Assembly (NCBI GenBank): GCA_016186995.1
Contig: JACPKQ010000007.1
Coordinates: forward strand, 116,226-175,195
Reading direction: 5' to 3'
Source of the DNA: Deltaproteobacteria bacterium
Lineage (GTDB): Bacteria; Bdellovibrionota; JACOXK01
DNA length: 58,970 bases
Below are positions 29,157-45,042 of the stretch, piece by piece; positions within the stretch are counted from its first letter, which is position 1, and each line of letters starts with the position of its first letter. The position numbers and the translations under genes were made by a program. The notes below the pieces were generated by a model, which had not been told where the DNA came from, did no database searches, and saw only the letters and a program-made list of their open reading frames with translations.

Positions 29157-29240
29157 GTAAATTCTCTCATGGATACGTCAGATCCTCCCCTTCAAAACAT
29201 ACTAGGTAACTTTATGTGTCTCATAACGAAAATAGGTTAA

Positions 29241-29391
29241 AGAGATAGGGATAGTACTTACAGAGGGTCGTGTCGGAAGGTAATCTGGCTTGGTCCGCAT
29301 GAATATGCGGCAGATTACCTGAGACGCGAGGCGCACTTTTTCGCAGGAAAAAAGTGACGCCGTACCCGAGGAAAGTACTATCCCTATCTCT
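29241..29391 (+). repeat. TIR-flanked 151-bp structured element, copy 1
   Basis: A perfect 19-bp terminal inverted repeat: AGAGATAGGGATAGTACTT (29,241-29,259) and its complement (29,373-29,391). Inside are a hairpin AGGTAATCTG/CAGATTACCT (29,278-29,287 with 29,311-29,320) topped by CCGCAT/ATGCGG, and a second stem CACTTTTTTC/GAAAAAAGTG. No target-site duplication is obvious. It could be a MITE-like element or a structured RNA. A second, longer copy is at 40,561-40,784. Confidence 0.8.
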
Positions 29392-31361: not shown

Positions 31362-31453
31362 GTCATTGCGAGGCAAAGCCGAAGCAATCCCCTAGAATTC
31401 TTGTAAGAATTCTAGGAGATCACCACGGTTCATTTTATGAACCTCGTGATGAC
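31362..31453. repeat. Family B palindromic repeat between fabG and acpP
   Basis: A 92-bp element: outer ends GTCATTGCGAG (31,362-31,372) and CTCGTGATGAC (31,443-31,453) pair imperfectly. An inner perfect 12-bp stem CCTAGAATTCTT/AAGAATTCTAGG (31,391-31,402 with 31,405-31,416) is followed by GAGATCACCACGG and a GGTTCA/TGAACC stem. Related copies occur at the 3' end of ribE and inside rnhB. It sits inside the fab transcript, so it will also form RNA structure before acpP. Confidence 0.85.
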
Positions 31454-35130: not shown

Positions 35131-36254
35131 ATCGTATACACGAAGCCATTATGCAGAAAGCGCTCGAACTTGCGGTAAAAGCGCAAGGAAAAACACAAAC
35201 AAATCCGCTTGTGGGAGCTGTGCTTGTTAAAGATAATATCATTATCGGTAAGGGTTTTCATTCAGCTTTTGGAGCACCTCATGCAGAGGTAGAGGCCATA
35301 GGCGACGCTCAAAAAAAAGGTTTTAGTGTTCAAGGGAGTTCTCTCTATGTAACGCTTGAGCCTTGTGTTCATTTTGGAAAAACTCCACCGTGTACAGAAC
35401 TTATTTTAAATTCGGGTATTTCAGAGGTTTTTATTGGAATGACGGATCCAGACCCAAAAGTAAAAGGGCTTGGGCTAAACATTCTTAAGGAAAATAAAAT
35501 AAAAGTTGAAGTGGGTGTTTTAGAAAAGGAGTGTCAGAAGTTAAACCAGTTTTATATTAAGCACAGGGAAACTGGGCTTCCTTATGTCATTCTTAAAGTG
35601 GCAGCTACTTTAGATGGAAAAATTGCCGATTCTCATGGAGGCTCACGATGGATTACAGGAGATGGAGCACGCTGTTATGTTCATAAAATACGAAGTCGTA
35701 TGGATGCAATTTTAGTGGGTATCAATACGGTGATCAAAGACAATCCACAACTGACTGTAAGACTTCCAGGTGTGAGTGCAAAACCTTTAAGAATTGTTTT
35801 GGATTCTCACCTAAGAATTCCTCTTGATTCAAAAATTCTTAACGATGCATCAGTTTCAAGAACCATGATTATTATGTCCTCCTGTCATTCCGGCAAGAGC
35901 GGGGATCTATCATCTAAGATTGATGAGATCAGAAAAAAAGGAGCTCAGGTTCTTCCTTCTGCTTCTTGCCATTCCCGCGATCTTAAAATTGCTTTAAAGC
36001 CTCTTCTTCAAAGTTTAAGTAAAGATGGTGTTATGTCTCTTATGGTTGAAGGAGGAGCAGAAACGAATGCTTCATTTTTAAAAGAAGGGCTTGTAGATCA
36101 AATTGATTATTTCTTTGCCCCACGTATTTTAGGGGCTGAAGGCTTAAATTCTATTGCTTCTTTAGGGATTGATAATATTCAAAAAGCTCTCTCATTTAAA
36201 GATTATAAGTTTGAAAGGGTTGGAAATGACCTTCTTTTTGAGGGGACTCTCTAA
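35127..36254 (+). CDS. ribD: Bifunctional riboflavin biosynthesis deaminase/reductase RibD
   Basis: A 375-residue RibD. The deaminase domain (1-145) has HAEVEA (zinc-binding) and the PCVHFGKTPPC cysteines. The reductase domain (about 150-375) has KVAATLDGKIA, GSRWITG and MVEGGAETNASFL. It performs the second and third steps of riboflavin synthesis. Residues about 253-261 (SCHSGKSGD) are coded by a family A repeat, and a second degenerate piece lies at SCHSRD about 30 residues later. Both are in a surface loop of the reductase domain. The stop overlaps ribE by 1 nt. Confidence 0.92.
   Translation: MNRIHEAIMQKALELAVKAQGKTQTNPLVGAVLVKDNIIIGKGFHSAFGAPHAEVEAIGDAQKKGFSVQGSSLYVTLEPCVHFGKTPPCTELILNSGISEVFIGMTDPDPKVKGLGLNILKENKIKVEVGVLEKECQKLNQFYIKHRETGLPYVILKVAATLDGKIADSHGGSRWITGDGARCYVHKIRSRMDAILVGINTVIKDNPQLTVRLPGVSAKPLRIVLDSHLRIPLDSKILNDASVSRTMIIMSSCHSGKSGDLSSKIDEIRKKGAQVLPSASCHSRDLKIALKPLLQSLSKDGVMSLMVEGGAETNASFLKEGLVDQIDYFFAPRILGAEGLNSIASLGIDNIQKALSFKDYKFERVGNDLLFEGTL
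35884..35909. repeat. Family A repeat inside ribD
   Basis: GTCATTCCGGCA to GGGGATCTA lies in frame at about residues 253-261 of RibD. A degenerate half-copy (CCATTCCCGCGATCTTA) is at 35,969-35,985. The reading frame is kept. Confidence 0.65.
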
Positions 36255-37021
36255 TGTTTTCTGGAATCATTACATCTTTAGCCGTGATTGATGAAGTCAT
36301 AAAACAATCTTCTTCTCTCACACTTCATTGTACATGGAAAAAACCACTTATAGGTGTAGAAGAAGGAGAAAGTTTAAGTCTGAACGGTATTTGTTTAACA
36401 GTCACAAAAGTCATGTCATTCCAGCCCGAAGCTCTTGGCATGACCCCTGTCATTCCCGCATCAGATGAAAGCACCAGCGGGAATCTAGATAGCGCAGCCA
36501 CTTTTTTTGAAGTCGATGTTTCAATAGAAACTTTAGAGAAGACAACAGCCAAGAATTGGAAGAATGGGGATCTCTTAAATGTTGAAAGAGCTCTTAAATA
36601 TTCTGATGTGGTTGGAGGACATCTTGTCAGTGGCCATATTGATGGAGTTGGAAAAGTTTCTGAAATTTCTGTCATCCCAGCGAACCCCTCTGTCATTCCA
36701 GCGCAGGCTGGAATCCAGTCCCAATTCACAAAAATGACTCTTTCTCTTCCAAAAGCCTTTATGAAGCATATTGTTTCGAAAGGCTCTCTTGCAGTGGATG
36801 GTGTGAGTCTCACTATCAATAAAGTTTTAGAAAAAGAAGTAGAACTTATGTTTGTTCCCTTTACGTTACAAAACACAAACTTGGGAACAAAACAAAAAGG
36901 CGATTTAGTAAACGTTGAGCTTGATATGATTGGAAAGTATGTTGCAAAACATCTGGAGGATATTGCTATAGTGCAGTCATTGCGAGGAGTCGAAGACGAC
37001 GCGGCAATCCCATCGCGGTAG
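36254..37021 (+). CDS. ribE: Riboflavin synthase with repeat-derived insertions
   Basis: A 255-residue riboflavin synthase alpha chain; related proteins have about 195-215 residues. The two lumazine-binding repeats are recognisable (MFSGIITSLAVIDEV and GICLTVTKV; VVGGHLVSGHIDGVG and VDGVSLTINKV). Residues 54-79, 140-157 and about 241-255 are coded by palindromic repeats: two family A sites and a family B copy that also provides the stop. Removing them gives a normal-size enzyme. The reaction is the dismutation of 6,7-dimethyl-8-ribityllumazine. The gene overlaps ribD by 1 nt. Confidence 0.9.
   Translation: MFSGIITSLAVIDEVIKQSSSLTLHCTWKKPLIGVEEGESLSLNGICLTVTKVMSFQPEALGMTPVIPASDESTSGNLDSAATFFEVDVSIETLEKTTAKNWKNGDLLNVERALKYSDVVGGHLVSGHIDGVGKVSEISVIPANPSVIPAQAGIQSQFTKMTLSLPKAFMKHIVSKGSLAVDGVSLTINKVLEKEVELMFVPFTLQNTNLGTKQKGDLVNVELDMIGKYVAKHLEDIAIVQSLRGVEDDAAIPSR
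36415..36444. repeat. Family A half-copy inside ribE (site 1a)
   Basis: GTCATTCCAGCCC to TGGCATGACC, immediately before a full family A copy. It codes residues 54-63 of RibE (MSFQPEALGM). Its end also reads as an inverted GTCATGCC, so it may be two half-elements. Confidence 0.55.
36449..36488. repeat. Family A repeat inside ribE (site 1b)
   Basis: GTCATTCCCGCATCAG to CAGCGGGAATCTAG: arms ATTCCCGC and GCGGGAAT pair perfectly. It codes residues 66-78 of RibE (VIPASDESTSGNL), inside a loop between the first lumazine-binding strands. Confidence 0.85.
36671..36718. repeat. Family A repeats inside ribE (site 2)
   Basis: A half-copy GTCATCCCAGCGAACCCC is followed by a full copy GTCATTCCAGCGCAGG to GGAATCCAG (36,692-36,718). 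It codes VIPANPSVIPAQAGIQS (residues 140-156). The VIPAQAGIQ peptide is a known signature of such repeats when translated. Confidence 0.88.
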
Positions 37022-37040
37022 CGATGAGATCACCACGGGT
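36976..37040. repeat. Family B repeat at the 3' end of ribE
   Basis: Starts GTCATTGCGAGG and contains the family B core GAGATCACCACGG; the right end is not clear. It codes the last 14 residues of RibE and supplies its TAG stop. Confidence 0.75.
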
Positions 37041-40501: not shown

Positions 40502-40855
40502 AGCGCGCTTTTTATCACAGTTTTAAATTTGAATCAATTTCTAGAATGACACTTTATTTAAGAGATAGGGATAGTTCTTATCGAGGGTCGTGTCGGAAGG
40601 TAATCTGGCTTGGTCTGCATAGTATATGCAGCAGATTACCTGTAGAGGCGAGGTCCAGGCTTTTATGAATCATTTTTTAGTTTCACAAAAATGATTCATA
40701 AAAAAGATAATTCCCGGAGTTAAGCTGTTCTTTTCTAATAAAAAAAGTGATGCCGTGCCCGAGGGAAGTACTATTCCTATCTCTGTAATGAAGAACCAAG
40801 GTTGTCATTCAATGAGGGATTGCTTTCTTTTCGCGTGATTGTTACATGTGAAAGA
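40502..40855. other. Gap upstream of the ffh operon
   Basis: About 354 bp holding the second copy of the TIR-flanked element (40,561-40,784). The remaining bases show no gene. A promoter for the ffh operon should lie here, but no strong -35/-10 pair was picked out by eye. Confidence 0.5.
40561..40784 (+). repeat. TIR-flanked structured element, copy 2 (224 bp)
   Basis: Ends AGAGATAGGGATAGTTCTT and AAGTACTATTCCTATCTCT (2 mismatches to a perfect 19-bp inverted repeat). The first 60 nt match copy 1 at about 56 positions. The central hairpin region has about 70 extra bases containing its own palindrome TGAATCATTTTT/AAAAATGATTCA. Same orientation relative to downstream genes as copy 1. Confidence 0.8.
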
Positions 40856-43924: not shown

Positions 43925-44363
43925 CGATTATATTAGAAGTAAAAAAACAGATAAGAAATTTCCTGCTTTTCGTTCTGGAGATACTATCCGTGTTGGTGTT
44001 TCCATTAAAGAAGGGGGAAAAGAACGTGTTCAAGATTTTGAAGGGCTTGTTGTAAGAATTAAAAAAGGTCCACAGGCAAGTTTCACTGTAAGAAAAGTTG
44101 CTTTTGGTGTTGGGGTTGAAAGAACCTTTCCTTTTGATTGTCCTTCTGTTCAAAGAATTGAACTTCTTAAAGAGGGTAAGGTCAGACGTTCAAGACTTTA
44201 CTACATGAGAGATCGCACGGGTAAAGGAACACGTATCGAGGAGAAAGGTAAAGGGCTTAATAATAATGAAGATGGACAAGATGTTGAAGCCGCAGAAAAT
44301 GAAGAAGTAGAAGTTACTGAAAAGAAAGAAGCCACCTCCCATGCTCAAGCCGTCTCTTCTTGA
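43911..44363 (+). CDS. rplS: Ribosomal protein L19 with acidic extension
   Basis: A 150-residue bL19. The core (about 1-115) carries FRSGDTIRVGVSIKEG, FEGLVVRIKKG and SPSVQRIELLKEGKVRRSRLYYMRDRTGK. Residues 116-150 form an acidic, low-complexity tail (NNNEDGQDVEAAENEEVEV) not seen in most L19 proteins, which end near 115-120. The tail overlaps the rnhB start by 23 nt. Confidence 0.93.
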   Translation: MNKISDYIRSKKTDKKFPAFRSGDTIRVGVSIKEGGKERVQDFEGLVVRIKKGPQASFTVRKVAFGVGVERTFPFDCPSVQRIELLKEGKVRRSRLYYMRDRTGKGTRIEEKGKGLNNNEDGQDVEAAENEEVEVTEKKEATSHAQAVSS

Positions 44364-45042
44364 GCTAGATCTTCTAAAAATGAATTCAAATATTATTGGT
44401 GTTGATGAAGTGGGCCGCGGTTGTCTTGCAGGCCCGGTTGTTTCAGCAGCAATCAGTTTTCATGATTGGTCAGAAATTAAAGGTATTCAAGACTCTAAAA
44501 AAGTTTCCAAGAAAAAAAGAGAAGCACTTATTCCATTGATTCAAAGTAAAGCTCATGTAGGAATAGGGGTTATAGAACCTCAAGAAATTGATTGTATCAA
44601 TATTCTTCAAGCTTCTCTTCTTTCTATGAAAAAAGCTATTTTAAACCTTATATCTTCTTCTGTCATTGCGAGTGCAACGAAGCAACGCAATCGCGATAGC
44701 GATGAGATCACCACGGTCGCTAGGCTCCCTCGTGATTATACCCTTCAGGGTGGAAAAATCACACCTTACATCCTCATTGATGGACACCTTACTTTAGATA
44801 TAGAATTTCCCCAAAAACCCATTATTGGTGGGGATGGCTCTTGTTACTCTATTGCGGCCGCATCCATTATTGCAAAGGTTTACAGAGATCGTCTTATGGA
44901 AAGCTATGCGAAAACTTACCCGGGTTATGATTTTGAAAACAATGTTGGTTATGGTACGCAAAAACATCGCGATGCAATTGAGGTGAATGGTGTTACTCCC
45001 ATTCACAGAAAAACCTTTAGAGGGGTTCGAGAGTTTGTATAA
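44341..45042 (+). CDS. rnhB: Ribonuclease HII with a repeat-derived insertion
   Basis: A 233-residue RNase HII. Catalytic core: GVDEVGRGCLAGP (Asp and Glu), IQDSKKVSKKKRE, YILIDGH and AASIIAKVYRD. It removes RNA from RNA-DNA hybrids. Residues 108-133 are exactly coded by a 78-bp family B repeat (26 codons, in frame) with a GGK linker after it. The insertion lies before the YILIDG strand, at a position where related enzymes have a short loop. Typical RNase HII is about 200 residues. It overlaps rplS and yraN. Confidence 0.92.
   Translation: MLKPSLLELDLLKMNSNIIGVDEVGRGCLAGPVVSAAISFHDWSEIKGIQDSKKVSKKKREALIPLIQSKAHVGIGVIEPQEIDCINILQASLLSMKKAILNLISSSVIASATKQRNRDSDEITTVARLPRDYTLQGGKITPYILIDGHLTLDIEFPQKPIIGGDGSCYSIAAASIIAKVYRDRLMESYAKTYPGYDFENNVGYGTQKHRDAIEVNGVTPIHRKTFRGVREFV
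44662..44739. repeat. Family B repeat inside rnhB
   Basis: GTCATTGCGAG (44,662) to CTCGTGATTAT (44,739), 78 bp, with the core GAGATCACCACGG. It begins at the first base of codon 108 and adds exactly 26 codons. Family B copies in ribE and upstream of acpP share the core. Confidence 0.88.

Follow-up and report, generated by a model that had tools for sequence, protein, structure and literature searches.

Palindromes that code for parts of proteins have mostly been discussed for Rickettsia and Wolbachia. The RPEs of Rickettsia (Ogata et al. 2000, via PMC2229807) are short dispersed palindromes lying in frame in conserved genes, a description that also fits the repeat reported here. A guanylate kinase carrying an RPE was shown to stay active (PMC2229807). 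In work on R. japonica, different RPE groups were described at the same locus of orthologous genes, leading to the hypotheses of an insertion hotspot or a common origin (PMC3767692). A second described system is that of the CGTC-tagged REPs, which have a terminal CGTC, TGTC or CCTC tag, a stem of 8–9 bp, a loop of 4–5 nt and a CCA-like tail (Di Nocera et al. 2013, PMC3733652).

Here we describe a family of palindromic repeats, family B, in a bacterium of another lineage that has many protein-coding palindromes in its core genes. One copy lies in frame in rnhB, the gene for RNase HII. Palindromes within genes are of a known kind; what is new is that an unrelated dispersed repeat occupies the same rnhB junction in a related genus.

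Results

The window, the whole stretch of DNA that was analysed, is 58,970 nt long. It contains an open reading frame of 233 codons (44341..45042, + strand) that matches the RNase HII family (PF01351, E=3e-32; NCBIfam ribonuclease HII), with a likely start at an in-frame TTG (44374) or ATG (44380). This is the only RNase HII gene in the genome (G000), which also contains a separate RNase HI gene. Within rnhB, a 78-nt family B repeat occupies 44662..44739 (+ strand), spans GTCATTGCGAG...CTCGTGATTAT and encodes the 26 residues VIASATKQRNRDSDEITTVARLPRDY, its first base being codon position 1 of residue 108. The assignment rests on the sequence, on 40 matches in the genome and on an alignment of the copies. 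The repeat is followed by nine codons, TLQGGKITP (44740..44766, + strand), and then by the YILIDG strand (44767..44784, + strand), which was placed by phmmer alignment to 3o3g, 2etj and 3o3f. The aspartate of this strand, D136, aligns with D107 of T. maritima RNase HII, the residue mutated (D107N) in 3o3f.

To define the size of the extra protein segment, we compared the distance between the NIL motif and the catalytic LIDG or LVDG motif. This distance is 30–39 residues in 67 RNase HII relatives and 64 residues in G000. Segments of such length (64 and 66 residues) were found only in G000 and in G001, a genome from a different genus and the one other member of this family that was compared (n=2 family genomes). 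A long loop as a conserved trait of RNase HII is therefore rejected outside this family, and the class-level relatives G002–G006 were without the insertion wherever RNase HII was found. Four residues of the T. maritima enzyme correspond to 38 in that of G000. Segment length relative to these proteins thus indicates a net gain of about 34 residues (102 bp), a value that, like any target duplication, is deduced from distant homologues. The repeat accounts for 26 of the approximately 34 extra residues, and about eight lie outside it, including those encoded by a small hairpin, ACCCTTCAGGGT, within the nine codons.

These results uphold the starting point of an earlier note on this DNA, a 78-bp family B copy beginning with the first base of codon 108. 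The note further held that exactly 26 codons had been added; this is correct for the repeat itself, and the extra segment is longer, as TLQGGKITP precedes YILIDG. The note had also considered rnhB as a pseudogene accompanied by a second intact copy; no second rnhB was found in the genome.

Searching the 1.68-Mb genome with the 76-nt repeat core gave 40 matches at E<=0.01, which is far beyond chance. The matches include the 78-nt copy in the RNase R gene at 89% identity and 80-nt copies at 82–84%. Aligned copies consist of three hairpins: an ATTGC/GCAAT unit, a central hairpin, and an inverted second unit ending in GATGAC. The first unit opens with (C/T)GTC, and most copies begin (C/T)GTCATTGC. 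Family B is thus a dimer of GTCATTGC...GCAATC hairpins flanking a central hairpin, and nearly all full copies are inverted unit pairs of this kind. The stem, starting ATTGC/GCAAT, has five clear pairs, the loop is longer than those published for CGTC-tagged REPs, and CCCA often follows GCAAT. The central hairpin varies in sequence between copies with its palindromy kept, and the pairing bases of the right-hand stem covary among the aligned copies (ATCAC/GTGAT, ATCGC/GCGAT, ATAGC/GCTAT, ATTAC/GTAAT). Canonical copies are 78–82 bp long, and longer central hairpins give 88–107 bp. In the rnhB copy the 3′ tag is TAT, where canonical copies have GAC, and the fold energy is -22.0 kcal/mol, whereas the RNase R copy folds at -29.4 and a canonical copy at -31.7. 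Such weakening of the rnhB palindrome would be expected if an open reading frame is all that is still being maintained.

Two further copies lie in the window. A complete 92-nt copy is located outside genes, immediately upstream of the gene for the acyl carrier protein (31362..31453, + strand), and a truncated copy (36976..37040, + strand; direct repeat D2) forms the 3′ terminus of ribE, providing the last codons and the TAG stop of that gene. Several GTCATTCC-type repeat segments (VIPASDESTSGN, VIPANPSVIPAQAGIQ) also lie in frame in ribE (36254-37040). The window also has a direct repeat of 64 nt that is unrelated to family B; its two units (29237-29300 and 40557-40620) are 92% identical.

Family B was not found in the seven nearest genomes, G001 included. 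Among 290 genomes of the phylum the full element was essentially limited to this one, and two further genomes gave short, partial matches. Related hairpin units, GTCATTGCG..GCAATC, numbered 81 in G000 and 63 in G001, with 0 in the control. We regard family B as a genus-level, non-coding palindromic repeat that is presumably mobile. No RAYT (Y1_Tnp, PF01797) was found in G000 at E<=0.001, in an assembly that is 93% complete, and a RAYT was therefore set aside as the mobiliser; G001 has three RAYT matches. A search covering the window and a set of further loci gave no Rfam match at gathering scores for family B or for the G001 repeat described below, and a known RNA family was rejected for both. 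Target palindromes were likewise rejected for family B, since its flanks are not complementary (permutation p=0.46). Open frames are not clearly enriched in family B (mean 2.0 of six, and 1.8 in shuffles). In the 90–97 bp repeat of G001 (L079-L096), left and right flanks are complementary beyond chance (18 copies, permutation p=2e-4), as if the repeat sat in hairpin tips or had a variable outer stem.

The inventory of copies within genes covers those found as matches to the 76-nt query. They measure 78 bp in rnhB and RNase R, 82 bp in MutS, 81 bp in RecJ and a TolC-type OEP, 80 bp in SCO1 and CarA, and 88 bp in an HI0933-like flavoprotein; a UDG-family protein also carries a copy. The host genes are open frames of recognisable families, and the copies lie in both orientations and in several frames. 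An in-frame palindrome with the ORF left open, the trait typical of RPEs, is present in rnhB, RNase R, MutS, RecJ, CarA and others. A length divisible by three, together with the supposedly different lengths of other copies, had been taken in the note as a sign of selection for a neutral insertion in rnhB. This argument fails on both counts: the RNase R copy is also exactly 78 bp, and of the eight in-gene copies four have lengths not divisible by three. Such lengths, together with the mixed frames, suggest that intact frames reflect the survival of tolerable net insertions, as they do for RPEs and for CGTC-type REPs within genes. A length chosen for rnhB is not needed, because the frame depends on the net insertion alone. 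The MutS gene (L004, G000:C10) contains two family B insertions and an adjoining repeat of another type, with its frame open, and its G001 orthologue has none.

RNase HII of G000 keeps D11, E12, D136 and D154, the catalytic DEDD residues of the type 2 RNase H fold. In an alignment-based AlphaFold2 model, 131 residues of the core have pLDDT >= 90, and residues 108–126 of the 222-residue form, which lie inside the insert, have pLDDT < 50. With Z 27.6, E. coli RNase HII was the best structural match of the model; the T. maritima enzyme scored Z 25.9. Identity between G000 and G001 is 58% for RNase HII outside the insert, 59% for RNase R and 58% for RecJ, which indicates that rnhB is under ordinary constraint. 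In the model, the insert is predicted to be disordered and to occupy a tolerant loop of a functional-looking RNase HII, and the enzyme with this extra loop is probably still active.

RNase HII of G001 has its 66-residue segment at the same place as the G000 insert. The inserted DNA is a different dispersed, strongly folded repeat, again in frame, which starts GCGGGTCCTG and ends CACCCG. It is present in 19 copies in G001 and in none in G000, and its similarity to canonical family B is no greater than that of shuffled sequence. The left junctions of the two inserts coincide within approximately one codon.

The earlier note had suggested comparison with relatives and had counted an equivalent insertion of unrelated DNA there as evidence against its reading. 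Such an insertion is what G001 contains, but it is itself a dispersed repeat, a finding that favours a permissive site and is compatible with a repeat origin in G000. The note's broader picture, an in-frame repeat insertion in a tolerant loop of a functional-looking gene, agrees with the single gene copy, its ordinary divergence and the confident core of the model.

Nine insertion sites were compared between the two genera, and three are occupied in both. Besides rnhB, these are the RecJ linker, with a family B dimer in G000 and a single hairpin unit in G001 (C6:5564-5599), and the MutL linker, which is invaded by different repeats and is a weak case because the linker is long. The six unshared sites are in RNase R, MutS (two), the HI0933-like protein, CarA and a G001 glycosyltransferase. 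Under uniform placement approximately 0.02 coincidences would be expected; this rough figure takes G001 to have up to 100 in-gene palindromes and uses 450,000 codons and an 11-codon window. The pattern of permissive sites was noticed after the fact, and nine sites are a small sample.

Discussion

We consider it probable that the family B repeat in rnhB lies in a tolerant loop, that it was kept because the net insertion was in frame and tolerated, and that this site has been filled by different elements. The repeat would have inserted into the loop joining a helix to the catalytic-aspartate strand of RNase HII. Insertion may be indifferent to genes and frames, in which case copies that broke essential genes would have been lost, and the survivors would be those with a net insertion that is a multiple of three, no stop codon, and a position in a surface loop or linker. 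If tolerant sites are few, different repeat families could come to share the rnhB loop in two sister genera. The rnhB copy would since have drifted as ordinary coding sequence, losing much of its palindrome as its frame stayed open. Both occupancies of rnhB are observed, and from them we infer independent filling. The best explanation appears to be that certain protein sites are permissive and have been occupied repeatedly, by different elements. The wider proposal, that the RNase HII loop and the RecJ and MutL linkers are recurrent landing sites for unrelated palindromes across this bacterial family, has about an even chance of being right.

The strongest competing explanation, which we think unlikely but well worth weighing, is that RNase HII of the common ancestor was already extended, by an insertion or a long loop that later repeats replaced or entered, so that the position was inherited. 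Two genomes from the family do not separate independent insertion from ancestral occupancy. An inherited loop would fit the 5–8 residues that both genera show beyond the repeat, relative to the usual 30-residue segment, and the RecJ sites of both genera contain units of the same hairpin superfamily; in rnhB, however, the two insert families are unrelated and each is absent from the genome that has the other. For Rickettsia orthologues with different RPE groups at the same loci, a common origin was preferred (PMC3767692). In the present case, canonical family B is no closer to the G001 insert than shuffled sequence is, a remnant of one family was not seen in the other's insert, and the insertion is missing from G002–G006 where RNase HII was found.

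It is improbable that a benefit led to selection of the repeat in rnhB, whether a new binding surface or regulation by an mRNA hairpin. Intragenic REPs reportedly occur often in genes of DNA replication and repair (PMC3733652), and rnhB, mutS, recJ and the gene for a UDG-family protein carry copies here, with other repeats in mutL; yet unrelated genes are hit too (tolC-type, carA, SCO1, glycosyltransferase). Moreover, much of the palindrome is gone from the copy in rnhB, and the inserted peptide, predicted to be disordered, is wholly different in G001. That rnhB is inactivated and drifting, as an insert at most ten residues from the catalytic strand might suggest, is most improbable given a single genome copy with an intact 233-codon ORF, the family residues kept (D11, E12, D136 and D154 among them), and identity to G001 outside the insert equal to that of other conserved genes.

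If permissive sites are indeed filled more than once by different elements, in-frame insertion would be a repeatable route to disordered segments in housekeeping enzymes, and either the structure of the target DNA or the tolerance of the protein would determine the landing sites. With RNase HII, it can be measured how well an enzyme tolerates a large insert beside a catalytic strand. With two unrelated elements in one enzyme loop in two genera, the choice between hotspot and common origin, unsettled in Rickettsia (PMC3767692), becomes directly testable.

Like the insert in rnhB, RPEs add tens of residues in exposed regions, with the frame open and function apparently tolerated. Ends in ATGAC also mark RPE-4, -6 and -7 (PMC3767692). 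These three were judged to derive from one sequence, whereas the rnhB pair is unrelated and each element is specific to its genome, which makes the rnhB pair the clearer case. Family B also differs from RPEs in lineage and in length, typically 78–82 bp compared with 105–146 bp for the first RPEs. An NCBIfam search with RNase HII and RibE, reading matches up to E=1, gave no RPE model, although short inserts may escape such models. With the CGTC-tagged REPs (PMC3733652), family B has in common a (C/T)GTC tag followed by a stem starting AT, and head-to-head dimers. In-gene dimers of those REPs likewise encode 20–30 residues and have DNA repair genes among their targets, and they are without a dedicated transposase, just as no RAYT was found for family B in G000. 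Family B differs in stem and loop sizes that were not matched to the four published families and in its extra, interchangeable central hairpin. In its tag and in the arrangement of its dimers, its architecture matches that of the CGTC-tagged REPs.
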